Shown here: piece by piece, positions 229-38,343 of the stretch
Numbering within the stretch: position 1 is the first letter of the stretch
Layout: each line of letters begins with the position of its first letter
Assembly (NCBI GenBank): GCA_035559815.1
Contig: DATMAT010000059.1
Coordinates: 1-38,343, forward strand
Origin: Thermodesulfobacteriota bacterium
GTDB lineage: Bacteria; Desulfobacterota_D; UBA1144; Nemesobacterales; CSP1-2
Reading direction: 5' to 3'
Length of the DNA stretch: 38,343 nucleotides
Made by a program: the position numbers and the translations under genes
Notes under the pieces: model-generated
Database searches by the model: none
What the model was told of the DNA's origin: nothing
Seen by the model: the letters and a program-made list of their open reading frames with translations, nothing else

Positions 229-915
229 ATGAGAATAATGGATAAAAAAAACAGAGGAAAGGTCTGGCGAATAGCCTTGCTGGTTCTAATTCTAATTTCT
301 GCTTTCCTGCTGATTAGAGGTTCCGGTATTAGGTTTCAGGACCTGACTCCGCTGAAAATTAAAGAGTATCTCCTAAGTTACGGGACCATAAAAGCAGCAC
401 TTATCTACTTCCTTATCTACACATTCTCGATAAGGCCTTTAGTTCCGGTACCGCCCACCCTCTATACCCTGGCCGGAGGGTTTACGTTCGGCCCGGTATT
501 AGGGACTATCTTGACTATCATTGGAGCAACCTTCAATGCCAGCATTTCCTTCATGATAGCAAGGCTGCTGGGCAGGGATTTCGTCGAGAAAATATTAAAA
601 GGTAAATTGGGCACACTTAACGACAAGCTGGCCGACAGCGGATTCAAAACGTTACTTGTGATAAGAAGCTCCCCTATTGGGCCGCCGTTTGATTTGGTTA
701 GCTATGCCGCAGGTGTTCTCAGGGTCTCTTTCTGGAGCCACTTTTTCGCCACCATGATTGGGATTATCCCGGCTACCTCGGTTTACTCCTATTTTGGAGG
801 TTCCATAACCAAAGGGGGCTTTTATATACTCATCGGATTCTTCCTGGTCGTAGTTTTTTCTATTTTTATACCGTGGGTTATAAGGAAGCAAAGGCTAAAG
901 AGTAAATCATTCTAA
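229..915 (+). CDS. TVP38/TMEM64 (SNARE-associated, DedA-like) membrane protein
   Basis: A 228-residue inner-membrane protein with an N-terminal membrane segment (about residues 13-30) and further hydrophobic stretches at about 50-110 and 165-220. The family core is visible: a Gly-rich segment with GPVLGT, then a re-entrant stretch ending ARLLGRDFVEK, and later SSPIGPPFDLVSYAAG. This matches the VTT/DedA fold, whose members are proposed lipid scramblases or transporters; the substrate here is unknown. ATG 229 and an in-frame ATG at 238 are both possible starts, and neither has a strong ribosome site. TVP38 genes often sit next to MerA-like flavin reductases, as here, and that pair recurs beside arsenosugar-type gene sets. 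The gap to the reductase contains a palindromic repeat, so the two may not share one transcript. Confidence 0.88.
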   Translation: MRIMDKKNRGKVWRIALLVLILISAFLLIRGSGIRFQDLTPLKIKEYLLSYGTIKAALIYFLIYTFSIRPLVPVPPTLYTLAGGFTFGPVLGTILTIIGATFNASISFMIARLLGRDFVEKILKGKLGTLNDKLADSGFKTLLVIRSSPIGPPFDLVSYAAGVLRVSFWSHFFATMIGIIPATSVYSYFGGSITKGGFYILIGFFLVVVFSIFIPWVIRKQRLKSKSF

Positions 916-1070: not shown

Positions 1071-1198
1071 CACGGCGTGATATAGCTTCACTAAGTTCAT
1101 ATCGAATGCAATCGAGGCGTTAGTAATGACAGTATTGTGGTGACCTTGTGGCATGCACGGATAATTCTCGAGTAAAACCAAATTTTAGGAGTTACCAA

Positions 1199-2626
1199 AT
1201 GGATAATTATGACATAGTAGTGATAGGTGGCGGGGCGGCCGGGCTTACCGTAGCAACCGGCTCCGTAAAATTCGGACTCAGGGTTGCTCTTGTCGAGAAA
1301 GAGAAGTTAGGCGGCGATTGCTTATACTACGGCTGTGTACCCAGTAAAACCCTGATACACTCGGCCAAAGTAGCCTCATTAATAAAGCGGGCGAAGGAAT
1401 ACGGGCTCGATGAAACCATGCTCTCTTTTGATTTCGAAAAGGTGATTAACCATGTCTGGAATACGATAAGCATAATAGGCAAGCATGACGACCCGGAGAG
1501 ATTCAGGAAAATGGGTGTGGACGTGGTCTTCGGCGACCCGAGCTTCACCTCTCCTGAGGAGATAGAAGTAAACGGAAGGAGGATAAAGAGCAAAAAATTT
1601 GTCATTGCCACGGGGTCAAGGTCCTTCACGCCCGCGATCGATGGACTTAAAGAGGCCGGTTTTATATCACACGTCGAGGTATTTCATTTAAAGAAACTCC
1701 CACAGTCTTTAGTTGTTATAGGTGCCGGGCCTATAGGGATGGAGATGAGTCAAGCCTTTGCCCGATTCGGCTCAGATGTCACGGTAATAGAAATGTTGGA
1801 TAGGATTCTTCCCGTCGAGGATGAAGATGTTTCAGAAGAGCTGGAGAAATATTTGACCAAAGAAGGAATCAAGTTCTTCACCGGAACGAAAGCCGAGCGG
1901 GTCTCTTTGGAAAATGGCAAAAAAGTAGTGCTTGCGAAGAAAAACGGAGAGGAAATCAATATAGCAGCGGATGAAATCCTGGTTGCAGTAGGACGTACAC
2001 CCAATGTGGAGGGGTTAAACCTTGAGGCTGCCGGGGTCGAGTATAACCGGAAAGGGATAGTAGTCGATCAAAAACTAAGGACCACCGCCAAAAACATCTG
2101 GGCATGCGGTGACGTGGTCGGACCTTACCTCTTTACGCACATGGCTGAGTATCAGGCTGGCATAGTGGTGAGAAATGCTTTACTCAGACTCCCGGCCAAG
2201 GTGGACTATTCCGTCGTTCCCTGGACCACGTTTACCGACCCCGAGGTTGCCCATGTGGGAATCTCCGAGAATGAGGCAAAGAAAAAGAACATTAAGTACA
2301 GCGTTTACAAACACCAGTATAGTAATGTTGATAGAGCGGTTACAGAAGTAGAGGGCGTTGGCTTTGCAAAAATCATCACCACCGGATGGAAAGGAAAGAT
2401 AATAGGGGCCCACATTGTAGGGCCTAATGCCGGTGAGCTGATTTCGGAGCTTGCCCTTGCCATAAAAAAGGGAATGACGGTAAAGGATATTTCTTCCACC
2501 ATCCATGTCTATCCGACTCTGGCCCTCGGAACAAGGCAAACCGCAGACCTATTTTACCGCCATAAATTTGAGTCCTCCCAGCTACTTCAGAAGCTTCTCA
2601 TGTTTATAGTCAGGCTTCTAAACTGA
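1199..2626 (+). CDS. MerA/Lpd-like FAD pyridine nucleotide-disulfide reductase
   Basis: A 475-residue flavoprotein. I start at ATG 1199 because AGGAG at 1187-1191 is well spaced and the FAD-binding motif GGGAAG follows at once; the longer frame from 1148 adds 17 unlikely residues. The redox-active pair is in GGDCLYYGCVPSK, the NAD(P)H-binding glycine motif in VIGAGPIGMEM, and the second FAD motif in ACGDVVG. Family members move electrons from NAD(P)H through FAD to a disulfide or metal substrate. The C-terminal catalytic region reads HVYPTLALG where dihydrolipoamide dehydrogenases have HxHPTxxE, so the base His is Tyr and the partner Glu is missing. There is neither an N-terminal HMA domain nor a C-terminal Cys pair as in true MerA. 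Mercuric reductase activity is therefore unproven; a role reducing an arsenical or thiol for the downstream genes is inference from position. Confidence 0.9.
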   Translation: MDNYDIVVIGGGAAGLTVATGSVKFGLRVALVEKEKLGGDCLYYGCVPSKTLIHSAKVASLIKRAKEYGLDETMLSFDFEKVINHVWNTISIIGKHDDPERFRKMGVDVVFGDPSFTSPEEIEVNGRRIKSKKFVIATGSRSFTPAIDGLKEAGFISHVEVFHLKKLPQSLVVIGAGPIGMEMSQAFARFGSDVTVIEMLDRILPVEDEDVSEELEKYLTKEGIKFFTGTKAERVSLENGKKVVLAKKNGEEINIAADEILVAVGRTPNVEGLNLEAAGVEYNRKGIVVDQKLRTTAKNIWACGDVVGPYLFTHMAEYQAGIVVRNALLRLPAKVDYSVVPWTTFTDPEVAHVGISENEAKKKNIKYSVYKHQYSNVDRAVTEVEGVGFAKIITTGWKGKIIGAHIVGPNAGELISELALAIKKGMTVKDISSTIHVYPTLALGTRQTADLFYRHKFESSQLLQKLLMFIVRLLN

Positions 2627-2761
2627 TTGGTTTCTGAGATTCTAAGTGCTCCCTGTCCATATCCATTACCGGAGATGGTTTTTCAACCTATTTTTACCTG
2701 CACATGGAACCTTTTTTCAAAATCCGCATCTATTAGAAGAATAAAAGCACGTTACGAGGCC

Positions 2762-3127
2762 ATGCGATTGAAAAATTGTGCTAAGTTACTTAAATCACTG
2801 GCTGAAGATGTTAGGCTCCAAATCCTGAGGTGCCTCTTCAATGGCGAGTATTCGGTATCTGAAATAGCCAAAAGAGTGGGCAAGAAACATTCTCAGGTAT
2901 CCCACCATCTAGGAATACTCAGAAATTCAGGGATAGTAGTCGACAAGAAAGAGGGAAAGTTCGTTATCTACCAAATCCATCCTCTTCTTTACAAGAGACT
3001 TAGGAGTGTAAAACATAAGGATGTGCTTGATTTCGAGTGTTGCAGTATTGGATTTAGGAGATTTAGAAGTAAAGGAAAAGTAGAGTTATGTACTTTATTC
3101 TTACGTTCTTACATACGTCTTGATTAA
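2762..3127 (+). CDS. arsR: ArsR/SmtB-family metalloregulatory repressor
   Basis: A winged-helix repressor of 121 residues from ATG 2762; a longer frame opens at TTG 2627 but its extra 45 residues do not look like this family. The recognition helix region reads SEIAKRVGKKHSQVSHHLGILRNSGIV (split here as SEIAKRVGKKH and SQVSHHLGILRNSG), with the beta-wing GKFVIYQI after it. The ELCVCDL arsenite site of classic ArsR is absent, since that helix reads NGEYSVSEIA. Instead there is a vicinal pair C93-C94 and a further C110 near the C-terminus. This resembles Acidithiobacillus ferrooxidans ArsR, which binds As(III) through C-terminal Cys95, Cys96 and Cys102. It directly precedes the ArsM fusion gene (35-base gap) and probably represses the operon when arsenite is absent. 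The upstream 135 bases show no clear operator. Confidence 0.85.
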   Translation: MRLKNCAKLLKSLAEDVRLQILRCLFNGEYSVSEIAKRVGKKHSQVSHHLGILRNSGIVVDKKEGKFVIYQIHPLLYKRLRSVKHKDVLDFECCSIGFRRFRSKGKVELCTLFLRSYIRLD

Positions 3128-3162
3128 ACTCAACGATAAAATTGCTAAGGAGGTAAAACCGA

Positions 3163-5691
3163 ATGGAACTTGGTGATAAAACGATCTTACATGCCCCGCC
3201 CTACTCCCAAATCGAGCAAAACGGCCTCAGTATTCTTATCGATCCCGAAGGACCTAACTGGATAAGCACAGACTCGAGAGGAGCCAGAATTGCAAGCTAC
3301 ATCGATGGAAAAAAAACATTCAATGATATCGTAGCACTCTACAGCTCGGAATTTGGTCTCAATGGAGCGAAAGCATGGGTTCATGTGAATTCATTCATCA
3401 AAGACGCCCTCAGAGAGAAGTTTATATCCTTCACTCCTTATACAAGACCATCTTACACCGGCAGGAGCGACTATCTAAAAGTAGACCATCTAAGCGAGCT
3501 TTGGATACATACAAACAACTCATGCAACCTACAGTGTACCCATTGTCTGGTTAGTTCCGGTCCGTGGGAAGATAAAGGACTGCCTACCGACGAGATAAAA
3601 CGCATAATCGACCAGGGACGAGAACTGGGAGTATTCCGCTTCTACTTCACTGGAGGAGAACCATTTATTAGGAGAGATATTTATGAGCTAATCGAATACG
3701 TTACACGAGACCCCGACTCAGAGCTTATTACCCTGACAAACGGAATGCTGTTCACCCAGGAGAAACAGATAAAGCGACTCCTCGAGGTAGCCAGAGGCCG
3801 ATTCAAACCCCAGATCAGCCTCGACGGCTCGACCACAGAAGCGAATGATCCGATTCGGGGAAAAGGCACGTTTGAAAAAATAATAAAAGGGATAAAAGCC
3901 GCAGCAGAAGCGGGTCTTAATCCAACCGTTACTACAGTAGTTACGTCGGCAAATGCCGAAGACGTACCAAATGTTACAAGACTTCTAGCTACCTTGGGGG
4001 TAAAAAATCACCACCTCCTCTGGGTCCACCAAAGAGGAAGGATAACTAACGGAAGCAGAGACCTTTTACTTCCTACGTACAAGTTGATTGAGGTGGTAAA
4101 AAAGGTCAAAAAAGTAGCAGACGAGGTTGGAATTTCCATAGACAACATTGTATCAATCAAGCAAAAATTAAAATCAAGAAAGTTTACCAAATTTGACCTG
4201 AGTAATGCCTGCTGGGAGAGTTTATGCGTCTACTCAGATGGTGAAGTTTATCCCTCCGCTGCATTTGCAAACTTTAAGGGACTTAGCTGCGGGAACATAA
4301 GAGAAAAAGATTTATCCGAAATCTGGCAAAATAGCCCTGTTTGCAATATGTTTAGAAAAGCAACAGTCCAGAAAAAGACAAAGTGTAATGGCTGTTATTT
4401 AAAATTCATCTGCGGAGGCGGAGATATCGAACATTCCTACTTTTACTCGGCCGCTACCTTTGGAGAGGGTGATCTGCACGGGCCTGACCCCTGCTCCGAC
4501 CTTCACGAATACATGATCACCTCGAGCCTCTTTGAGCTGGCCGAGGAAGGGAGACAAACATTCAATCGCAAGTCCGGATTCGACGCTCCTCCGGTATTTC
4601 TGAGCATGGGAGAGGGCGCTCTATCCTGCGGTATCAATGGTTCCAACGGAAATGGAAGATTTCATACGTTCTCTGACTTCACCGTAGAGATATCCCACTC
4701 CAACTGTGTGCTTACCTTCAACATAGATAAGTCCCGTGAAGTGGTGAGGGAATTCTACAGAAAAGCGGCAGAAGAGCCGCAAAAGGAACTCTGCTGTCCC
4801 ACAAGTTATCCAACTGATGATGTAAGTCATATCCCACAAGAAGTCATCGATAGATTCTACGGTTGCGGAAGTCCGATGAGCATCGCTGATATAAAACCAG
4901 GGGAAACCGTAGTCGACCTCGGCTCCGGTGCTGGAATTGACTGCTTTATAGCCGCAAAGAAGGTAGGCCCGTCTGGGAAAATAATCGGAGTGGATATGAC
5001 TGACCAGATGCTCAGGGTCGCAAACGAGTGTCGTCCTATTGTTTCAACCAACTTGGGCTATGATGTTGTCGAATTTAGAAAAGGATTTCTGGAGGAAGTA
5101 CCCATTCAGGATAAATCGGTCGACCTTATCACGTCAAACTGCGTTATAAACCTCTCACCGGACAAAAAGAAGGTCTTCTCCGAGATGTGGCGTATTCTCA
5201 GTGACCATGGGAGGATAGTGATTTCAGATATAGTATCGGAAAAGGAAGTTCCGCCCCATATAACCACCAACGACCGGCTCTGGGGAGAATGTATAGCCGG
5301 TGCCCTAACCGAAGAGCAATTCATCTCCTACCTCGAACAGGCAGGCTTCTACGGTATACAAGTCCTAAAAAAGACATACTGGAAAGACGTGGAAAACTAC
5401 AGGTTTTTCTCCATAACGGTGAGAGGATATAAATTCCAGAAGACGGCAGGGTGTGTATTCATAGGACAAAAGGCTATCTATAACGGCCCCTTCAAAGCCA
5501 TAGTAGACGAGGAAGGGCATTTATTTCCTCGCAGTGAAGAAGTAGAAGTATGCACGGACACGGCACAGAAGCTGGTAAAACCCCCGTATGCGGGATTGTT
5601 CATAATTACAGATCCAAGCAGAGAAGCTCCGGCAAACTATAATTGTTCCGCAGACGGCAGTTGTTGTGCAGACGGAGGTTCGTGTTGTTAG
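3163..5691 (+). CDS. PqqD-like / radical SAM-SPASM / ArsM methyltransferase fusion
   Basis: An 842-residue three-part enzyme starting at ATG 3163 behind a strong AAGGAGG. Residues about 15-90 look like a PqqD-type peptide-binding domain. Residues about 110-330 are a radical SAM core with the [4Fe-4S] motif CNLQCTHC (C121, C125, C128) and GGEP at 164-167. Residues about 350-445 carry SPASM-type cysteines (C350, C355, C408, C411, C417, C444) for auxiliary clusters. Residues about 525-842 are ArsM: SAM site [12 protein letters not shown], and cysteines C568, C594, C660 and C710 in the contexts YGCGSP, GIDCF, SNCVINL and GECIAGAL, matching the conserved As(III)-binding positions. The tail is Cys-rich (C828, C833, C834, C841, C842). 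ArsM makes methylated arsenicals from As(III) and SAM. The radical SAM part could attach a deoxyadenosyl group, as ArsS does, or modify a peptide; this is inference. Codon use does not stand out from its neighbours. Confidence 0.92.
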
Positions 5692-5818: not shown

Positions 5819-6457
5819 ATGAGCAGACCAAAACTAAATCACACGCTCCTCATCTTCGTAAAGTACCCCGAGCCAGGAAGGGTGAAAACCCGTTTAGCCG
5901 AGGATTTGGGTCATGAAAAAGCCGCAGAGATTTATGCGAGTATGGCGGAGAGCGTTATACATAACCTATCCGAATCTGAAGAATACAAGACAATAATCTT
6001 CTTTGACCCCCCAGACAGGAAAAGAGAAATGGAGAATTGGCTGGGCAAAAGGTACCGGCTTTTGGCACAGGAAGGAAACTCCCTCGGTGAAAGGATGGCA
6101 AACGCTCTCGAGAAAACATTCTCGCTAGGAGCGGAAAAAGCCGTCATCATCGGCACTGACTGTTTAGAAATTACAGAGGAAATAATATCCCGGGCTTTTC
6201 AGTCGCTAGATGAGATGGACTTGGTGCTTGGCCCCGCGGAGGATGGTGGATATTACCTATTGGGAATGAAAGAATCAATACCAGAGATTTTTGACGATAT
6301 TACGTGGAGTACCAGCCAGGTTCTGGGTCAAACAATAAACAAGATAAAGACAATGGGTCTTAAGTTCAGTCTATTAAAGACCTTAAGAGATATTGATACA
6401 ATCAGTGATTTCAATAACGACCTTCTCTCTAAATTCAGTAAGAGTAAAAACAGCTAA
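5819..6457 (+). CDS. TIGR04282/DUF2064 glycosyltransferase, arsenosugar-type
   Basis: A 212-residue cytosolic GT-A-like enzyme. The N-terminus carries LIFVKYPEPGRVKTRLA, the nucleotide-binding signature of the DUF2064 family, followed by an IGTDC motif and GPAEDGGYYLLG in the second half. Length and motifs match TIGR04282, first named rSAM/selenodomain-associated transferase 1 and now annotated as an arsenosugar biosynthesis glycosyltransferase. It would transfer a glycosyl group, presumably to an arsenic-containing ribose intermediate; the donor and acceptor are not shown by the sequence. It follows the radical SAM-ArsM fusion by 127 bases, and its stop overlaps the transporter start as TAATG, so those two genes are translationally coupled. 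The companion TIGR04283 transferase is not in this window. Confidence 0.88.
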   Translation: MSRPKLNHTLLIFVKYPEPGRVKTRLAEDLGHEKAAEIYASMAESVIHNLSESEEYKTIIFFDPPDRKREMENWLGKRYRLLAQEGNSLGERMANALEKTFSLGAEKAVIIGTDCLEITEEIISRAFQSLDEMDLVLGPAEDGGYYLLGMKESIPEIFDDITWSTSQVLGQTINKIKTMGLKFSLLKTLRDIDTISDFNNDLLSKFSKSKNS

Positions 6458-7596
6458 TGCTTACTGCCTTAGTTATTTCTTATATCGCTTTGCTCTCATA
6501 TGCCAATGGCGCCAACGATGTTTCAAAAGGCATCGCCACACTTGTTGGTAGCAGGGTTGCCAATTATAAAAGGGCCATTACCTGGGGAACAATCTGGACC
6601 ATCGTCGGGGGGATAGCGGCGGCAATCTTTGCACTCGAACTTGTAAAGACATTTTCAGCTACAGAAATACTAAGGTCACCTTCCAGGCTGAACCAAGTCC
6701 TCCCACTATCGGTTATCTTAGGAGCATTTGTATGGGTCATCTTTGCATCCAAAACAGGACTACCAGTTTCCACTACCCACGCAATTACCGGGGCAATCTG
6801 TGGAGCGGGGGTGGCCGCGGTAGGGTTTAATGAAGTAGAATGGTCGATCTTAGGAAAGAAGATTTTTCTTCCACTAGGTTTAAGTCCTATCCTTGCCTTG
6901 AGCATCTCCTGGCTATTTTCGCCTATAATCCAAAGGGTATCTACGCGGACCGAGCGTTACTGCCTGTGCCTCGAGGTAAGAGAAGTAATATCATCTAAGC
7001 CGGTTCTGGTGAGAGCTGGTATTCAAGGGACTTTTTCGCAAATTGTCCCCTTCCCTCAAGCAAATCTGATGGCGGCCGATAAAAACACATGTTCAGAATC
7101 ACTTACATCACCCATAAGGTTCGAGGTTTTGGATTTATTCCACTGGTTATCGGCAGGTATGGCCAGCTTTGCCCGGGGATTAAACGACGCTCCAAAAATT
7201 GTTGCCCTTGCCCTTGGTGTAAGTGCCCTGGGAACCCAGATATCATCGACAACCTCTTTTCTTATCGTTGCCCTGGCCATGGGTCTTGGAAGCGTCCTAT
7301 CGGGATTGAAGGTCACTGAAACACTGGCAGAGAAGGTTACTCCCATGAATCCCCAAGAGGGTTTTTCGGCAAACCTTACCACTTCGGTACTGGTCGTAAT
7401 TGCGGCAAGACTCGGGCTACCGGTCTCCACAACCCACGTCTCCAGCGGTGCAATAATCGGCATCGGACTCAAACGAGGAAGCAAAACAGTTAGATGGAAA
7501 ATGGTCTCAGAAATGATCATGGCATGGCTAATCACCCTTCCGGTGTCCGCTTTGGTTGGATTTATTGGTTATTGGTTTTTGAGCAAGGTCACGTAA
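6457..7596 (+). CDS. PiT-family inorganic phosphate transporter
   Basis: A 379-residue polytopic membrane protein with the duplicated PiT architecture. The first half has GANDVSKG (residues 18-25) and GLPVSTTH ending at about 108; the second half has RGLNDAPK (240-247) and a second GLPVSTTH ending at 327. A less conserved cytosolic loop of roughly 70 residues (about 160-230) separates the halves. PiT transporters bring in metal-phosphate with protons or sodium and also admit arsenate. The start codon overlaps the glycosyltransferase stop by one base, placing it in the same operon. In this context it may supply phosphate during arsenate stress or import arsenate; both readings are inference. 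Confidence 0.93.
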   Translation: MLTALVISYIALLSYANGANDVSKGIATLVGSRVANYKRAITWGTIWTIVGGIAAAIFALELVKTFSATEILRSPSRLNQVLPLSVILGAFVWVIFASKTGLPVSTTHAITGAICGAGVAAVGFNEVEWSILGKKIFLPLGLSPILALSISWLFSPIIQRVSTRTERYCLCLEVREVISSKPVLVRAGIQGTFSQIVPFPQANLMAADKNTCSESLTSPIRFEVLDLFHWLSAGMASFARGLNDAPKIVALALGVSALGTQISSTTSFLIVALAMGLGSVLSGLKVTETLAEKVTPMNPQEGFSANLTTSVLVVIAARLGLPVSTTHVSSGAIIGIGLKRGSKTVRWKMVSEMIMAWLITLPVSALVGFIGYWFLSKVT

Positions 7597-7813: not shown

Positions 7814-8206
7814 ATGAGATATTTGGGAGTCTTTGGTTTTTTGACAGTGGTTACTTTATTTTTCGTTTCTTCTTTGACCCTCGCTGCAGAAGGTAATAAG
7901 ATGGGCGGAGAGGAAAAAACTATTACCGGACAGGTAGTCGACCCGGCTTGTTATATATCTATGAATTTAAAGGGTGAGGCGCACCAGCAGTGTGCCGAGG
8001 CCTGTGCAAAAGCCGGGCAGGCTTTTGGTATTCTTGACGAAAAGAACGGCGTGCTCTATCAGGTTATCGAGGGAGCTCCCACAACAGATCCTAATCAGCT
8101 CCTCTGGGACCATGTAGAGCAGAATGTCAAAGTAACGGGTACTGTCTTTCATAAAGACGGCATGCACGCCATAGTCCCTAAAGAGGTCAAACCGGCCGGC
8201 AGTTAA
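7814..8206 (+). CDS. Secreted cysteine protein, paralogue 1, function unknown
   Basis: A 130-residue exported protein with a signal peptide ending near LTLAAEG (residues 20-26). Ribosome site GGAGGTG lies before ATG 7814. The mature part has TGQVVDPACY, then a helix with QQCAEACAKAG, then a beta-rich C-terminal half with VKVTGTVF that suggests a small OB-like fold. Three cysteines are conserved with the second copy at 14759-15148, and the mature regions are nearly identical, ending KPAGS in both. I know similar small secreted proteins from environmental bacteria but no assigned function. A metal- or haem-related role in the periplasm is only a guess. It is followed by a strong stem-loop, so it is probably transcribed alone. 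Confidence 0.8.
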   Translation: MRYLGVFGFLTVVTLFFVSSLTLAAEGNKMGGEEKTITGQVVDPACYISMNLKGEAHQQCAEACAKAGQAFGILDEKNGVLYQVIEGAPTTDPNQLLWDHVEQNVKVTGTVFHKDGMHAIVPKEVKPAGS

Positions 8207-14758: not shown

Positions 14759-15148
14759 ATGAGTAAACACCTCGGTTTCTTTCTAGGTCTCACAGCGGGA
14801 GTTTTCCTTTTGGTCCCTCTCCTAACCCTTGCGGGAGAGAAGATGGGAGGAAAGGAAGCCACAGTCACGGGACAGGTAGTCGACCCGGCTTGTTACATGG
14901 CCATGAATTTAAAGGGTGAGGCTCACCAGCAGTGTGCCGAGGCCTGTGCAAAAGCTGGTCAAGCCTTCGCTATTCTGGATGAAAAAGCAGGCGTGCTTTA
15001 CCAGGTTATAGAGGGCGCCCCCGGAACCGACCCCAATAAGCTCCTCTGGGACCATGCAGAGGGTATGGTTACGGTAAAGGGCACGGTCTTCGAGAAAAAC
15101 GGAATGCGTGCCATAGTTCCTACTGAGGTTAAACCTGCAGGAAGCTAA
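14759..15148 (+). CDS. Secreted cysteine protein, paralogue 2, function unknown
   Basis: A 129-residue exported protein, start ATG 14759 behind AAGGAGGTG. Signal peptide ends near LTLAGEK. The mature sequence is almost the same as that of the 7814-8206 protein, with shared blocks TGQVVDPACY, NLKGEAHQQCAEACAKAG and a common KPAGS end; the signal peptides differ more. Three Cys are invariant between copies. It lies 94 bases before a TlpA-like lipoprotein coupled to CcdA and divergent from the copper genes, so a substrate role in periplasmic thiol or metal chemistry is plausible, though not shown. The near identity suggests a fairly recent duplication or gene conversion. Confidence 0.8.
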   Translation: MSKHLGFFLGLTAGVFLLVPLLTLAGEKMGGKEATVTGQVVDPACYMAMNLKGEAHQQCAEACAKAGQAFAILDEKAGVLYQVIEGAPGTDPNKLLWDHAEGMVTVKGTVFEKNGMRAIVPTEVKPAGS

Positions 15149-31059: not shown

Positions 31060-34000
31060 ATGGATGGAAAATTTCTCACTATCATAAAAACCACTGTTTT
31101 GACATGCCTGCTAACAATTTCAATACCGGTAATTAACACGTTTGCTATAGGCGATAATTACGATGAAACGGGATTCAGGTCCAATAGAACATACATCGAG
31201 TATTCGACCCAAGAATATGTGAACCCCTTTTCCGGGAATCTAATACTCTCACATACAGATGTCTTCCTACCAGGAAACGGAGGTTTGGATTTAAAGATAC
31301 AAAGAACATATAACAGCAAGATATTCCTTGATCCCGATACCAGCGAGATTTCGGGCATAAGGAATGGATCAATGGGAATCGGCTGGACCTTTCATTTCGG
31401 CAGGATTGTACACGAACCTTTTTCGGTAAACGGACCTCTGCTTTACCTGGAAATGCCCGATGGCTCCTTCCACAATTTATACAACAATAACCATTCAAAT
31501 ATCAATTCGCATATAAATAGCAACTTTATAACGGAAGATTTTTGGAAGGTTAATTATGATGAAGCAAAGAAGGAATTCACCATGACATTGACAGACGGTA
31601 CGGTTTATACCTTCGGGCAATATGTCACCGACCTTATTTCCGTACACCAATATTACGCAACCTCGATAAAAGATACAAACGGAAACGAGATAAGGATTGA
31701 ATATTATGATTGTTGCAATATGGATGGGTCAGACCCGGAAACCGGGAATCTGGGAGAATGTCCAAACAGCGACCCGAGATCAAAGACCCCTCACATCAAA
31801 AGGATAACCGACAGTGTCGGTAGAATCATAAGCTTCGATACGGTCAACAATGCATGTAGAGGTAATGCTGTCAGCATGATCGATGTCAACGGCAAGAACT
31901 ACATCTATTCCTATTTCATCGGTAATCAGGGTGGGTCTCCCATATATTTTTTAAAAGAGGTCAAACCCCCCGAGGGTCCTGGCTGGAAATATTTCTATGA
32001 TGGAGATGGTACACACCCCGATGGTGAACTAATATCAGTTACTTATCCTTCCGGTGGTGTTGTGGAATACCAGTACGATACCTTAGATTTAGCCTCAATC
32101 TACGATCCCAACAAACCCTTTAAATTCAGGGCAATAAAGTCCCGAAACGCCTCCGGTCCCGGTATAATCCCAGGAACATGGACTTATTCCTATGATCCTT
32201 CGAGCAACCAGGATAGCACTACTGTTAGCGATTCGTGTGAAAATAAAACGGTGTATAAGTTTTACGGACTTCGTGAAGGCTCATATCTGGACGGCTGGGC
32301 AGTCGGGCTTCTCCGGGAAAAAGAGATAAAAGATGCAGAAAATAATTCAATACAAAATGAGATATATACCTGGACTCCTCGACAGATTTCAGACGATTCG
32401 TACGACCCGGTCTCCGGGACCCCGGGGTCGTTCATACCGCTCTTAAACTCAAAAAACATAAATAGAGACGGTAGCAGCTACTCCACCAACTTTACATACG
32501 ATACATTTTATGGTGCGCCAACCAGAATCGAAGAATCAGGAGAGCTGATAAGAACAACTGAGATATCACACTATGAAAACCTCGATGATGGGAACTACAT
32601 AGTGGGCAAGCCCAGGTCCATCATCTTAACAAACGACTCCGAGACTAAAACAATCAGTAACTCCTACGACAGCAAAGGAAACCTGCTTTCAGAAGATAGA
32701 TACGGCGTACTTACGGAGTTTTCCTATCATCCCGACGGAAATCTAGAATGGAAGAAGAACGCTAGAGGTTTCTATACCCACTTTGACCAGTATAACTACG
32801 GAATAGCAGGGCGCATCAGATATGGCTCATCAAGCTCCTCGGCCTCAAATCCGGTCTACTCCGAGGTTAAGACAATAAATTGGGAAGGAACCATTGCCAG
32901 TTTAACCAATGGAAGAGGCTATGAAACCTCCTTTAGCTATGACGGGATAAATAGATTAATAGCAGTAACCCCTCCGCCGAGCGGTGAAGTAAAAACCGTT
33001 ATAACCTACGATAATACAGACGGCCGGAGCTATATTGTCAAGAAGGGTATCTCCGAAGTTAGATATAATTTCGACGGCTTGGGCAGGCCGATTGGCACTA
33101 CATCCAATATAGGCGTCTTGACCGAGAAGAAGTATGATCAATGCGGGCGTAAGATTTATGAATCGTTACCTTATGCCTTTGACAACTCAACCCCAAACAC
33201 CGGAAATAGCTTTACTTACGATGCACTGGGAAGAGTGACGCGAATCTCCCATCCCGATAATACTTCAGTAACCTATTCATATTCCGGTAATACCGTAACA
33301 ATCAACAATGAAAAAGGCATCGCCACTACATACAGTTTCAAGTCTTTCGGCGACCCTGAGGATAAAAGGCTCTATAGCGTAAAAGACGCTCAGAACAATA
33401 CAACATCCTATGAATACGATCTCCTCGGAAATATCATTCGTGTAGATTCCCCAGCAGGGGGAGACCGGGTCTTCAACTATAATTCCAAAGGCTTCCTGGC
33501 TTCAGAAACACATCCGGAGAGTGGAACAACTACTTATTCCTATGACGAAATAGGAAACGTTATATCTAAAACTGGCGCCGACGGTAAGACCATAACTTAC
33601 CTTTATGACCAGCTTGACCGGTTAACTCTTATCAATCATCCCTCTCCAGAGGATGACGTTGTCTATGAATATGACCATGCAAACAACAGGACCCTGATGG
33701 AGAGTGGCTCTGGAAGCTATTCTTACTCCTACCTATACGACCAATCAAATAGATTGATACGGCAAGACACCTTATTAGATAACATAAGTTACAGCGTCGA
33801 TTTCGTATATGACGAGAGAAACAACCTTGTTCAAGCGGTTTATCCATCGGGAGAGATAGTCAACTACTTCTATGACGCTGGTAATAGATTATTGGACATA
33901 TACGACCAATCTAACATTTTATTCATCGGCAATACCATTTATCATCCATCGGGAGCGCCCGCTTATCATATCAACGCCATAGGGGTAACATCCGATTTTA

Positions 34001-37000
34001 CCTACGATAACCGCCACCGTTTAAAAACGATAAAAATTTCTCGTACGTTTCCTTTTCTAACCGTGTTGAAAGACGGTCTAGGCAGTGGAACCGTAACCAG
34101 TAATCCACTAGGAATTGATTGCGGACAAGATTGTACCCAGGTCTACCCGGCAGAAAACATAGAGGTCACTTTAACTGCGGCCCCAGATGATAATTCAAAT
34201 TTTGCAGGTTGGAGCGGAGACCCAGATTGTTCTGACGGAATCGTAATTATGGATGGGGTCAAAACATGTATTGCTAGCTTTGCATTGAAGGCCAACCAGC
34301 ATACGCTGACGGTCACTAAAAATGGAACCGGTTCCGGTACCGTAACCAGCAGCCCTCAAGGGATAGAATGCGGAGAAGACTGCGTAGAGGCTTACGACGT
34401 TAGCACAGAAGTGACTCTGACCGCAGTACCCGAATCAGATTCCAATTTCATTGGGTGGGGCGGAGACGCTGATTGTTCAGACGGTGTGGTCAAACTCGAT
34501 GCCGACAAACACTGTATAGCGACATTTAATACCGAATCGGCCACAAAACATACACTCACCGTGAGCAAATCAGGTCAGGGGGCGGGAACAGTAACCAGCT
34601 CTCCACCGGGAATAGAGTGTGGAAGTGATTGTGGAGAAGAGTATGATGAGAACACACAAGTAGCCCTGACCGCAATTGCTGATTTTGGTTCAACTTTTAT
34701 AGGCTGGGGTGGAGACCCCGACTGCTCGGATGGTTCTGTAATTATGGATTCGAGTAAAAACTGCATTGCTACCTTTAATCTTTCTCAAGGACGGCAATTT
34801 ACCCTCACCATACAAAAAAATGGAACAGGCAGCGGAAGGATAAAGAGTGCCTTCGAGGATCCACCCAAAATAGACTGCGGAGATGATTGCACCGAAGTTT
34901 ATGATGAAGGCGCAGTTGTCTTTTTCGAAATCATCCCGGATCCCGGTTCCAGATTTAGCGGTTGGAGTGGAACGCCCGGTTGCCCAACATCCCCAACCGA
35001 AGGTGCAAATGTGGTGAGTAACCTAAATTGTACAGCCACATTCGACTTAATCCCCGGGAATACATTAATCATAAACAAACAAGGCAACGGCTTTGGAACA
35101 GTTACCAGCTCCCCTAGCGGCATAAACTGCGGTAGTGATTGTAACCATACATTTGATACAAATACTTTAGTTACACTAACAGCGATTCCAAATGAAGGGT
35201 CAATTTTTGAAGGATGGAGTGGAGATGAAGACTGCTCGGACGGAATAGTTACTATGGATGTGAGTAAAACATGTACTGCTACCTTTATCCAATCCGCACA
35301 ACAGTTTGACCTTTCAATCAGTATAAAGGGCTTCGGAAAAGTAAAAGGATTATCCGGGAATCCTCGCGCACCCGATGTAAGAATTGATTGTAGAGGTTTG
35401 GGTGATCTTGATTCCTTTCAGTTTGGCAACGATTGTGGGGAAACCTACGGAATTAATACCCAGGTAGAGTTTCAAATTTTTACATTATCGGAATGCCCGC
35501 CAGGCCCCGGCCAATTTTGCACGGACCCGGAGGTTGACTACAACTCGACCTTTCTAGGCTGGGATGGTGATCCCGACTGTCTGGATGGCAAAGTTACCAT
35601 GGATGGAGATAAGACCTGTGTCGCCATCTTTACACCCTTTAAGCTAGATGTATTTATAACCGGAGGAGGGACAGTAACAAGAAATCCACAAGCTAACACC
35701 TGCACTACATTCCCAAATTGCTCCAAGTATTATCAACCAAATACTCAGGTAACCCTGACTCCGGTTCCCAATGCGGGATCGGTCTTTTCGGGATGGAGTG
35801 AAGACCCGGATTGCTCCGACGGTATAGTCACGATGGATGCTGATAAGAAATGCAGGGCGACTTTCACCACTTCCTCGCAAAAATTCCCTTTAACTATCAA
35901 TAAGTCAGGAACGGGATCAGGTACGATAACCAGCAATCCCGGTGGAATAAATTGCGGGTCTGATTGCACTGAGGATTATACGGTTAACTCTAATGTAACT
36001 CTTAAAGCGATCCCCGATTCCGGCTCAATTTTTGAGGGATGGAGTGGTGACTCCGATTGCTCCGATGGCATAGTTGGCATGGATTCTAGTAAATCTTGCA
36101 CCGCTATATTTACTCAATCATCAGAGCAATTCACCCTCGCCATAAGCAAATCAGGCACTGGAACCGGGAAGGTAACTAGCAGTCCTTCCGGAATAGACTG
36201 TGGCAGTGATTGCACGGAGAACTACGCTATAAACACGGTTGTATCTTTGATGGTAATACCCGACCCAGGGTCGAGATTTGTGGAGTGGACTGGTGATCAA
36301 GGTTGTAGTGATCAGGTAACACTTAATACGAATAAGAATTGCATAGCGACCTTTGAACCGGATTTATTTACTCTAACCATAAATAAGAACGGAGTGGGCT
36401 CGGGAACAGTGACAAGTAGTCCCGCGGGTATAGATTGCGGAAATGACTGTTCAGAGAATTATCCACCTAACACACAGGTAACTCTTACGGCGGTTCCGGA
36501 CACCGGTTTCGTATTTGCCGGATGGACCGGTGACGACGAAGACTGTAATGACGGCATAGTAACTATCGATTATTCAAAAAACTGCACGGCCAGATTTGGT
36601 TTACCATCCGCACACCTGGCCTACGTAACGAACCAATGGGATAACAGCATATCGGTTATAGATATCTCCTCGAATGTTGTGGTTGAGACAATAGCAGTTG
36701 GAGATTCACCGATAGGCATAGCAATTAGCCCCGATGATGCGTTTATCTACGTTGTTAACCAAGACAGCAATAGCGTATCGGTGGTTGATACAAGTACAAA
36801 CAGTGTGGTAGGTACGGTCAACGTAGGTGCTGGTCCCAGGCACTTAGCTTTCAGTCCCGATGGATCCCTGGTTTATGTAGTGAATGAGTTTGACAACAGC
36901 ATATCAGTGATCGATGCGGCTAGCAATACGGTAGTAAATACGATAACCGTGGGCAATACTCCTATGGAGGTAGCGATTAGCCCCGACGGAAATCGCGCTT

Positions 37001-38343
37001 ATGTAACAAACTATGTTGACGGCAGTGTATCGGTAATTGATGCTTCGACAAACACTGTTATCAACAATATTTTTGTGGGAATTCTGCCCAAAGCCATAGC
37101 GATTAGTCTGGATGGCAACTATGTTTACGTAGCCAACTCTTGGAATGACCCAAGACTTCAGGGTGGCAACAGTGTGTCCATTATAGACACGTTCACAAAT
37201 TCGGTTATCGAGACAATAAGCGTCGGGAGAGGGCCCTGGAGTTTAGCAGTTAACCCCGAAGGAACTCAACTTTATGTAGCTCATATCAGTGACGATGTAA
37301 TATCGGTCTTAGACACATCAACAAATAACCTGATAGATGCCATTAACACAGATTCAGCATCTTCAGACATATCGGTTAGTCCGGACGGAGATAGAATCTA
37401 TCTGGTTAATGACCTAGACAATATCGTAGTTGTTGCAGATGTTCCGACCAAAAGCCTGGTTGATACCATCAACGTCGGTGATACCCCTCGGGAGATTGTG
37501 ATATCAAACTACCAGAATAGCACACCAAAGCGGTACACTCTTACAGCTAGCAAATCAGGGACAGGAGCTGGAACCATAACCAGCAGTCCTGCCGGGATCA
37601 ACTGCGGTAGTGATTGCAGCGAGAAATACGACGAGAATACAGAAATAACTCTGACTGCGACACCTGGGTCGGGCTCCTCATTCGCCGGCTGGAGCGGGGA
37701 CCCAGACTGCTCGGACGGCTTGGTCATGATGAGTTCAGATAAGGCTTGCACCGCAACCTTTAATTTATTAACCTCTAGTAATTGTGACTGCAATAATTCC
37801 GGTGCCATTCGAGGAACCGACGGAAACGACATCCTGGAAGGAACCCCTAACGCCGACATAATTTGCGGCTTCAGGGGCAATGATACCATCAGAGGCTATG
37901 GTGGAGCAGACTGTATTGATGGAGGTGCCGGGAGGGATAAGCTCTATGGGGGCGCAGGTAATGACAAGCTTTACGGCGGTGGCGGAGGCGACACCCTGAG
38001 AGGAGAAGGTGGCAGCGATTATCTAGACGGCGGGCTGGGTACAGACACGTTAAACGGCGGTAAAAACAGTGATACCTGCATAAACGGTGAGACAATAAAA
38101 TACTGTGAAAATCTTAATAGCTTAAGGAACGATCTTTCATCCGAAGAATATTATGCGGTCTTAGCGGACTCAGGTTCCAAAAAAATAAGAACGAGTAGAC
38201 CTAAAGATTTGGCTAAACAATCCTGGAAGGAGAATCCAGATAATTTGACAAGCATTAAACAACACACCTTTAGTAAAAACCTGAAGCAAACTCCTAGATA
38301 CTCAAAGCTGACATCTTATGTAGAATCGCTCAGGTTATTCTTA
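31060..38343 (+). CDS. Giant exported RHS / InlB-like repeat / YVTN propeller / RTX protein, 3'-truncated
   Basis: The frame is open for all 2428 codons from ATG 31060 (AGGAG at 31047-31051) to the window edge, where it is cut. A signal peptide covers about residues 1-30. Residues about 45-110 resemble the start of RHS proteins (NPFSGNLILSHTDVFLPGN), followed by YD-type repeats to about residue 995, for example FTYDALGRVTRI and YDEIGNVISKTGADG. Ten repeats of about 78-115 residues follow (about 998-1846) with the pattern SGTVTSSPxGIxCGxDC, FxGWSGDxDCSDG and KxCTATF, like InlB B-type repeats but with four cysteines each. A seven-bladed YVTN propeller (about 1847-2149), an eleventh repeat (about 2150-2235) and RTX-type GGxGxDxL repeats (about 2248-2344) complete the visible part. 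RHS cores encapsulate toxins or form adhesin shells; the other domains suggest surface binding. The C-terminal effector or anchor, if any, is outside the window. Confidence 0.9.
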   Translation, partial: MDGKFLTIIKTTVLTCLLTISIPVINTFAIGDNYDETGFRSNRTYIEYSTQEYVNPFSGNLILSHTDVFLPGNGGLDLKIQRTYNSKIFLDPDTSEISGIRNGSMGIGWTFHFGRIVHEPFSVNGPLLYLEMPDGSFHNLYNNNHSNINSHINSNFITEDFWKVNYDEAKKEFTMTLTDGTVYTFGQYVTDLISVHQYYATSIKDTNGNEIRIEYYDCCNMDGSDPETGNLGECPNSDPRSKTPHIKRITDSVGRIISFDTVNNACRGNAVSMIDVNGKNYIYSYFIGNQGGSPIYFLKEVKPPEGPGWKYFYDGDGTHPDGELISVTYPSGGVVEYQYDTLDLASIYDPNKPFKFRAIKSRNASGPGIIPGTWTYSYDPSSNQDSTTVSDSCENKTVYKFYGLREGSYLDGWAVGLLREKEIKDAENNSIQNEIYTWTPRQISDDSYDPVSGTPGSFIPLLNSKNINRDGSSYSTNFTYDTFYGAPTRIEESGELIRTTEISHYENLDDGNYIVGKPRSIILTNDSETKTISNSYDSKGNLLSEDRYGVLTEFSYHPDGNLEWKKNARGFYTHFDQYNYGIAGRIRYGSSSSSASNPVYSEVKTINWEGTIASLTNGRGYETSFSYDGINRLIAVTPPPSGEVKTVITYDNTDGRSYIVKKGISEVRYNFDGLGRPIGTTSNIGVLTEKKYDQCGRKIYESLPYAFDNSTPNTGNSFTYDALGRVTRISHPDNTSVTYSYSGNTVTINNEKGIATTYSFKSFGDPEDKRLYSVKDAQNNTTSYEYDLLGNIIRVDSPAGGDRVFNYNSKGFLASETHPESGTTTYSYDEIGNVISKTGADGKTITYLYDQLDRLTLINHPSPEDDVVYEYDHANNRTLMESGSGSYSYSYLYDQSNRLIRQDTLLDNISYSVDFVYDERNNLVQAVYPSGEIVNYFYDAGNRLLDIYDQSNILFIGNTIYHPSGAPAYHINAIGVTSDFTYDNRHRLKTIKISRTFPFLTVLKDGLGSGTVTSNPLGIDCGQDCTQVYPAENIEVTLTAAPDDNSNFAGWSGDPDCSDGIVIMDGVKTCIASFALKANQHTLTVTKNGTGSGTVTSSPQGIECGEDCVEAYDVSTEVTLTAVPESDSNFIGWGGDADCSDGVVKLDADKHCIATFNTESATKHTLTVSKSGQGAGTVTSSPPGIECGSDCGEEYDENTQVALTAIADFGSTFIGWGGDPDCSDGSVIMDSSKNCIATFNLSQGRQFTLTIQKNGTGSGRIKSAFEDPPKIDCGDDCTEVYDEGAVVFFEIIPDPGSRFSGWSGTPGCPTSPTEGANVVSNLNCTATFDLIPGNTLIINKQGNGFGTVTSSPSGINCGSDCNHTFDTNTLVTLTAIPNEGSIFEGWSGDEDCSDGIVTMDVSKTCTATFIQSAQQFDLSISIKGFGKVKGLSGNPRAPDVRIDCRGLGDLDSFQFGNDCGETYGINTQVEFQIFTLSECPPGPGQFCTDPEVDYNSTFLGWDGDPDCLDGKVTMDGDKTCVAIFTPFKLDVFITGGGTVTRNPQANTCTTFPNCSKYYQPNTQVTLTPVPNAGSVFSGWSEDPDCSDGIVTMDADKKCRATFTTSSQKFPLTINKSGTGSGTITSNPGGINCGSDCTEDYTVNSNVTLKAIPDSGSIFEGWSGDSDCSDGIVGMDSSKSCTAIFTQSSEQFTLAISKSGTGTGKVTSSPSGIDCGSDCTENYAINTVVSLMVIPDPGSRFVEWTGDQGCSDQVTLNTNKNCIATFEPDLFTLTINKNGVGSGTVTSSPAGIDCGNDCSENYPPNTQVTLTAVPDTGFVFAGWTGDDEDCNDGIVTIDYSKNCTARFGLPSAHLAYVTNQWDNSISVIDISSNVVVETIAVGDSPIGIAISPDDAFIYVVNQDSNSVSVVDTSTNSVVGTVNVGAGPRHLAFSPDGSLVYVVNEFDNSISVIDAASNTVVNTITVGNTPMEVAISPDGNRAYVTNYVDGSVSVIDASTNTVINNIFVGILPKAIAISLDGNYVYVANSWNDPRLQGGNSVSIIDTFTNSVIETISVGRGPWSLAVNPEGTQLYVAHISDDVISVLDTSTNNLIDAINTDSASSDISVSPDGDRIYLVNDLDNIVVVADVPTKSLVDTINVGDTPREIVISNYQNSTPKRYTLTASKSGTGAGTITSSPAGINCGSDCSEKYDENTEITLTATPGSGSSFAGWSGDPDCSDGLVMMSSDKACTATFNLLTSSNCDCNNSGAIRGTDGNDILEGTPNADIICGFRGNDTIRGYGGADCIDGGAGRDKLYGGAGNDKLYGGGGGDTLRGEGGSDYLDGGLGTDTLNGGKNSDTCINGETIKYCENLNSLRNDLSSEEYYAVLADSGSKKIRTSRPKDLAKQSWKENPDNLTSIKQHTFSKNLKQTPRYSKLTSYVESLRLFL

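Follow-up and report, generated by a model that had tools for sequence, protein, structure and literature searches.

A conserved radical SAM-ArsM fusion protein as a probable non-orthologous replacement for ArsS

A single open reading frame in a 38,343-nucleotide stretch of DNA (the window) joins an N-terminal radical SAM module to a C-terminal arsenite methyltransferase, ArsM (Table 1). We propose that the fusion is probably a bifunctional enzyme forming carbon-arsenic (C-As) bonds, which stands in for ArsM and ArsS together: a non-orthologous replacement of ArsS yielding an arsenosugar-type precursor. An arsenic function is very likely. The fusion is real, conserved, and functionally informative, and it belongs to the ArsM-plus-radical SAM type of organoarsenic system; it might make a new product.

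Table 1. Features of the fusion gene and its operon in the window
Feature	Position	Strand	Evidence or remark
VTT (TVP38/TMEM64-like) membrane protein	229..915	+	Pfam VTT_dom, 88.4 bits; recurrent fusion neighbour
MerA/lipoamide dehydrogenase-like FAD oxidoreductase	1148..2626	+	Profile match; recurrent fusion neighbour
ArsR-family regulator, 121 aa, probable start ATG 2762	2762..3127	+	NF033788, 75.7 bits (cut-off 55); 52-58% identity with ArsR from arsM-arsS operons
Ribosome-binding site AAGGAGG	3147..3153	+	Read directly; 9 bases 5' of ATG 3163
rSAM-ArsM fusion gene, 842 aa	3163..5691	+	Single open frame; other genera and phyla have homologues over the full length (49-81% identity)
RRE/PqqD-like domain, residues 1-90 (3 strands, 3 helices)	3163..3432	+	pLDDT 84-96; PqqD 21.5 bits; Foldseek to CteB, SuiB, TigE
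Radical SAM core, residues 110-290; CNLQCTHC 121-128, TGGEP 163-167	3490..4032	+	Pfam Radical_SAM; three Cys invariant in 27/27 aligned proteins
SPASM domain, residues 345-447; 5 of 7 classical cysteines	4195..4503	+	Pfam SPASM, 37.4 bits; ligand table
Cys515, HSNCVL motif, end of radical SAM part	4705..4707	+	Fully conserved: fus1, fus2, unfused homologues
ArsM domain, residues 521-842, C-terminal CC tail	4723..5688	+	NF008823, E 3e-74; CmArsM, CrArsM, human AS3MT, E 1e-34 to 1e-38
Cys568, equivalent of CmArsM C72	4864..4866	+	Alignment
Cys660, equivalent of CmArsM C174	5140..5142	+	Alignment
Cys710, equivalent of CmArsM C224	5290..5292	+	Alignment
TIGR04282 "arsenosugar biosynthesis glycosyltransferase"	5819..6457	+	224 bits (cut-off 134)
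PHO4-family transporter, overlapping the end of the TIGR04282 gene	6457..7596	+	247.6 bits; also adjoins fusions in G185 and Omnitrophota

An earlier note, made from the sequence alone, had described the gene as a fusion of a radical SAM/SPASM enzyme with ArsM. That description holds: the same full-length join recurs in independent genomes of several phyla, which excludes the frameshift or assembly join near residue 500 that the note had named as the finding that would overturn it. Within the same Dadabacteria family, four further genera have full-length homologues with 72-81% identity, and others with 49-58% identity came from genomes bearing the titles Nitrospirae, Nitrospinota, and Omnitrophota. 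The note had also suggested a census; this kind of fusion, here called fus1, was counted in 25 genomes, which belong to Dadabacteria, Nitrospirota, Nitrospinota, and Omnitrophota (8 sampled Nitrospirota; 4 in the phylum of locus L038; 7 of 285 Omnitrophota; 5 of 58 in the window's phylum; and 1 Troglogloeales, where the contig stops inside the gene). A few fus1 genes are divided across contig ends. In Nitrospirota there is also a second kind, fus2, which joins the same radical SAM family to a shorter ArsM from a different lineage. Homologues of the radical SAM half also occur unfused, in four genomes (G068, G078, G087, and G104); they have a shortened RRE region and keep their TIGR04282 partner. 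No full-length fusion was detected in a plasmid search. One genome (G185) carries three copies (L133, L134, and L135), each followed by a PHO4-family transporter gene.

In domain searches of the fusion, which the note had likewise called for, Pfam placed Radical_SAM at residues 118-270 (89.7 bits), SPASM at residues 350-412 (37.4 bits against a cut-off of 21.5), and Methyltransf_31 at residues 577-728 (114 bits). PqqD, at residues 24-88, scored 20.9-21.5 bits, slightly below its cut-off of 23.4. The top NCBIfam match of the C-terminal half was the arsenite methyltransferase model NF008823 (249.9 bits, E 3e-74), under the cut-off of 263, as are ArsM proteins from genuine arsM-arsS operons (243 and 246 bits). 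The radical SAM superfamily motifs CX3CX2C (CNLQCTHC) and TGGEP are present and invariant. The classical seven-cysteine SPASM motif (CX9-15GX4C-CX2CX5CX3C-C) is incomplete in the window protein, where the GX4C and CX3C positions are occupied by S365 and D421. All seven cysteines are retained in fus2 and the unfused homologues, and several other fus1 proteins keep only 0-2, so the full pair of auxiliary clusters is not essential throughout fus1. The claim that one polypeptide carries all of these parts is sound for the single 842-residue frame, the RRE, the radical SAM core, and ArsM, and has to be qualified for SPASM (five of seven cysteines) and for PqqD (below the Pfam cut-off). Of the four conserved ArsM cysteines named in the note, C568, C660, and C710 align with those of CmArsM; C544/C545 lie where a fourth would be, in a stretch unaligned to CmArsM. 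The fusion has the fold, SAM motif, and three catalytic cysteines of ArsM/AS3MT enzymes (CmArsM, 4fr0; CrArsM, 5evj; human AS3MT, 8xt7) but adds a 520-residue radical SAM module in front.

The structure model of residues 1-521 (pLDDT 82.8, pTM 0.84) was matched by Foldseek over about 450-507 columns to the RRE-rSAM-SPASM maturases CteB, SkfB, SuiB, and TigE as its top solved structures. A winged-helix fold typical of the RRE (strands at residues 15-36, helices at 38-84) aligned with the RRE of these maturases, so that in the model the RRE is clear by fold, though not by Pfam score. The full-length model matched CmArsM but is too weak to place the domains relative to each other (pTM 0.53, with much of the ArsM half under 60 pLDDT). 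By sequence, the best solved radical SAM match was the cytosylglucuronate decarboxylase BlsE (7vob, E 9e-17), a small-molecule enzyme; BlsE has no ArsM, and its substrate is a nucleoside sugar acid. Against the ArsS model TIGR04167, the radical SAM half reached only 58.3 bits over a partial match (2-148 of 303), far from the curated cut-off of 300, and this score mostly reflects general radical SAM similarity. On these comparisons, the radical SAM half is a non-ArsS enzyme of an RRE-SPASM lineage whose SPASM clusters appear decayed in many members.

The gene order in the window is VTT-MerA-ArsR-fusion-TIGR04282-PHO4. The ArsR reading frame can be listed as 2627-3127 from TTG 2627; alignment with other ArsR proteins makes ATG 2762 the likelier start. 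In Dadabacteria the TIGR04282 gene lies directly downstream of the fusion. Across phyla the TIGR04282, VTT, MerA-like, and PHO4 genes recur beside fusions in shuffled order: in Omnitrophota, a TIGR04282-like gene is directly upstream at L157, L158, L159, and L163, and the order at L160 and L161 is MerA-VTT-fusion-PHO4. The TIGR04282 gene is not adjacent in every fus1 locus, and since it is widespread (61 of 76 genomes, many with neither ArsS nor a fusion), its presence alone is weak evidence. Unfused radical SAM homologues end in CVLTV or CVLSV with a 4-base overlap (ATGA) into the TIGR04282 gene, as at L125:2539-5415 and L126:2737-5622, whose genomes have a separate ArsM elsewhere; at L125 a glycerophosphodiester phosphodiesterase gene follows the pair. 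An in-frame TGA in four of these homologues, considered as a selenocysteine codon, is the stop codon overlapping the TIGR04282 start. Elsewhere in the window, a pair of closely similar small proteins, each with a signal-like start (VTGQVVDPACY...MNLKGEAHQQCAEACAKAGQAF), is encoded at 7814-8206, just 3' of the PHO4 gene and with no Pfam or NCBIfam match, and at 14759-15148. A very long repeat protein at 31060-38343, open at the contig end, combines an RHS-like start, GTVTSSPxGIxCGxDC repeats, YVTN-like repeats, and a calcium-binding-like end.

The central comparison for replacement of ArsS is with sister Dadabacteria families, in which the order is ArsR-ArsM-TIGR04169-ArsS-TIGR04282. Comparison of one fus1 locus (L041) with these operons gave HAD-ArsR-[fusion]-TIGR04282 versus HAD-ArsR-ArsM-TIGR04169-ArsS-TIGR04282, with the HAD gene common to both. 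The standalone sister ArsM proteins are 59-69% identical to the ArsM half of the fusion (71% over one partial gene), and in the ArsM tree they fall inside the fus1 ArsM clade (30 rows, support 100/99), which indicates that the same ArsM lineage is paired with either radical SAM enzyme. Two different radical SAM enzymes thus share an ArsM lineage, a regulator, a TIGR04282 partner, and a place on the chromosome. The AU test rejected one common fusion event for fus1 and fus2 only weakly (p 0.042) and did not reject a fus1 clade separate from the sister ArsM (p 0.162). The tree thus accommodates either direction, and the sister arrangement may reflect fission in sister Dadabacteria or separate fusions.

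ArsS and fus1 also exclude each other among genomes. A profile search of the window genome found no ArsS above the TIGR04167 cut-off, and ArsS was present in 0 of 25 fus1 genomes. Of the compared genomes that lack fus1, 56 of 107 have it: 25 of 30 further members of the order, 27 of 62 in the Nitrospirota/Nitrospinota set, with fus2 genomes among them, and 4 of 15 in Omnitrophota. This association was significant (stratified exact P 2.2e-7; CMH p 1e-5), with P values that are optimistic because related genomes were counted as independent. The pattern repeats in separate phyla, with Omnitrophota alone nonsignificant (P 0.19). ArsS was, however, found in 5 of 9 fus2 genomes, so fus2 is probably no plain substitute for it. 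One fus2 genome (G206) encodes five ArsS (TIGR04167) copies.

In the cyanobacterial arsenosugar pathway (Synechocystis SsArsS/SsArsM), as here, ArsM and a radical SAM enzyme share an operon with TIGR04282 and ArsR; in sister Dadabacteria, arsM and arsS occupy the operon place that the fusion has here. In the window the two enzymes are instead fused, the radical SAM half is N-terminal and of a different RRE-SPASM type (58 bits versus 300), and the peroxidase-like TIGR04169 gene is absent. Of the full arsenosugar set (ArsM, TIGR04169, ArsS, and TIGR04282), only ArsM and TIGR04282 are found here. An operon with ArsM, here fused, and TIGR04282 is characteristic of ArsS, and its presence speaks for an enzyme that works like ArsS, not for membership in that family. 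Against the proposed reading stand the low TIGR04167 score of the radical half, the lack of a TIGR04169 gene between the fusion and the TIGR04282 gene of the window operon, and the presence of ArsS in some fus2 genomes.

With ArsS replaced at the same operon position, passage of the ArsM product to the radical step is the most economical reading; to this extent the hand-over of arsenic proposed in the earlier note gains ground. What the sequences show is the domain content, the catalytic residues with an intact radical SAM core, the replacement within the operon, and the exclusion of ArsS from fus1 genomes. In the mechanism that we infer, the ArsM half would convert As(III) to mono- and dimethylarsenite, and the trivalent methylarsenical would be handed to the radical SAM half, perhaps via the conserved region between the domains that contains Cys515 and Cys489. 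Cys515 is invariant in 27 of 27 aligned proteins and Cys489 is present in most fus1; both are candidate arsenic-binding residues between the two sites. The radical SAM half would then cleave SAM and attach a fragment to arsenic, most likely the 5'-deoxyadenosyl group as with ArsS, which adenosylates arsenic (Cheng et al. 2021, as cited in PMC12159101). The downstream TIGR04282 protein would act on the product, towards an oxo-arsenosugar. The product would be an arsenosugar-type precursor; homology does not settle what the radical SAM half makes, and a new arsenical is possible.

A different C-As product is the best-placed alternative, although we consider it unlikely. As(III) or MAs(III) could be the substrate of the radical half, which would use a different SAM fragment or a sugar or nucleoside radical, and ArsM would methylate that product afterwards, in the order of the ArsL/ArsM arsinothricin pathway, in which the radical SAM step precedes methylation (PMC8552651). 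Like the fusion, that pathway combines a radical SAM enzyme with ArsM and forms C-As bonds, but there the radical SAM enzyme, ArsL, stands alone, is of another type, and belongs to another operon (arsQML). The radical half is no orthologue of ArsS, which suits this alternative, as do the fus2 operons. At every fus2 locus examined (L140, L141, and L071-L079; 11 matches, two of which are one locus), the fusion has a complete SPASM and is directly followed by a gene for a B12-binding radical SAM protein (about 490 aa, 74-84% mutual identity), apparently an undescribed two-gene arsenic cluster of Nitrospirota; the B12-dependent gene suggests that other products may exist in the family. For fus1, the exclusion of ArsS and the operon place, ArsR, and TIGR04282 partner held in common with ArsS operons argue against a different product. 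The most far-reaching reading, which we regard as less likely than not, is that the radical half represents a new class of radical SAM enzymes forming C-As bonds, outside the ArsS and ArsL lineages and derived from RRE-SPASM maturases. Two or more separate fusions would have joined it to different ArsM lineages, and it would make an undescribed arsenical, which in fus2 would be further changed by the B12 radical SAM enzyme.

It is improbable that the halves serve separate arsenic resistance tasks, for example with radical SAM demethylation or reduction of arsenicals, and that fusion merely coregulates them. The MerA-like reductase and PHO4 transporter among the neighbours, and an ArsP_1-type permease at L142, would fit such loose coupling, but consecutive steps are favoured because one radical SAM family is joined to two ArsM lineages, the fusion is kept in 25 genomes, and it stands where arsS would be. 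Most improbable is a RiPP-like maturase whose RRE binds a leader peptide for the radical half to modify, with ArsM loading arsenic onto the peptide or detoxifying nearby: the fusion shares domain order and fold with CteB, SkfB, SuiB, and TigE over its first ~450 residues (TM-score by target ~0.6-0.75), these RRE and SPASM maturases have the nearest folds, and the RRE region is conserved in fus1, but 19 neighbourhoods lacked both a precursor peptide gene and any conserved small ORF, both flanking genes adjoin or overlap the fusion at several loci, many members lack SPASM ligands, and unfused relatives keep TIGR04282 despite the shortened RRE. Unlike the fusion, the four maturases have no attached ArsM. 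The small-ORF matches in these neighbourhoods all came from the fusion's own ends or from conserved genes, in antisense or shadow frames. The PqqD and SPASM parts, which the earlier note called more typical of peptide-modifying enzymes, do not support a peptide product here, given the lack of a conserved small ORF beside the 19 loci, the tight packing of several loci, the decayed SPASM ligands in many fus1 members, and the recurrent neighbours (the arsenosugar-linked TIGR04282 protein and the VTT, MerA-like, and PHO4 genes).

One review describes only two radical SAM enzymes as forming C-As bonds, ArsS and ArsL (PMC12159101), and the only fusion mentioned in a paper on arsM transfer is arsM-SelD in Naegleria (PMC5552862). 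We found no description of an rSAM-ArsM fusion in the open-access literature, to which the search was confined. If the fusion does replace ArsM and ArsS, it would represent a third radical SAM lineage for C-As bonds, found across several phyla that have received little study, and arsenosugar-type chemistry would seem to have arisen more than once. With both steps on one polypeptide, the passage of a toxic trivalent methylarsenical from one active site to the other could be tested directly, and organoarsenic synthesis would prove more widespread than is currently known.
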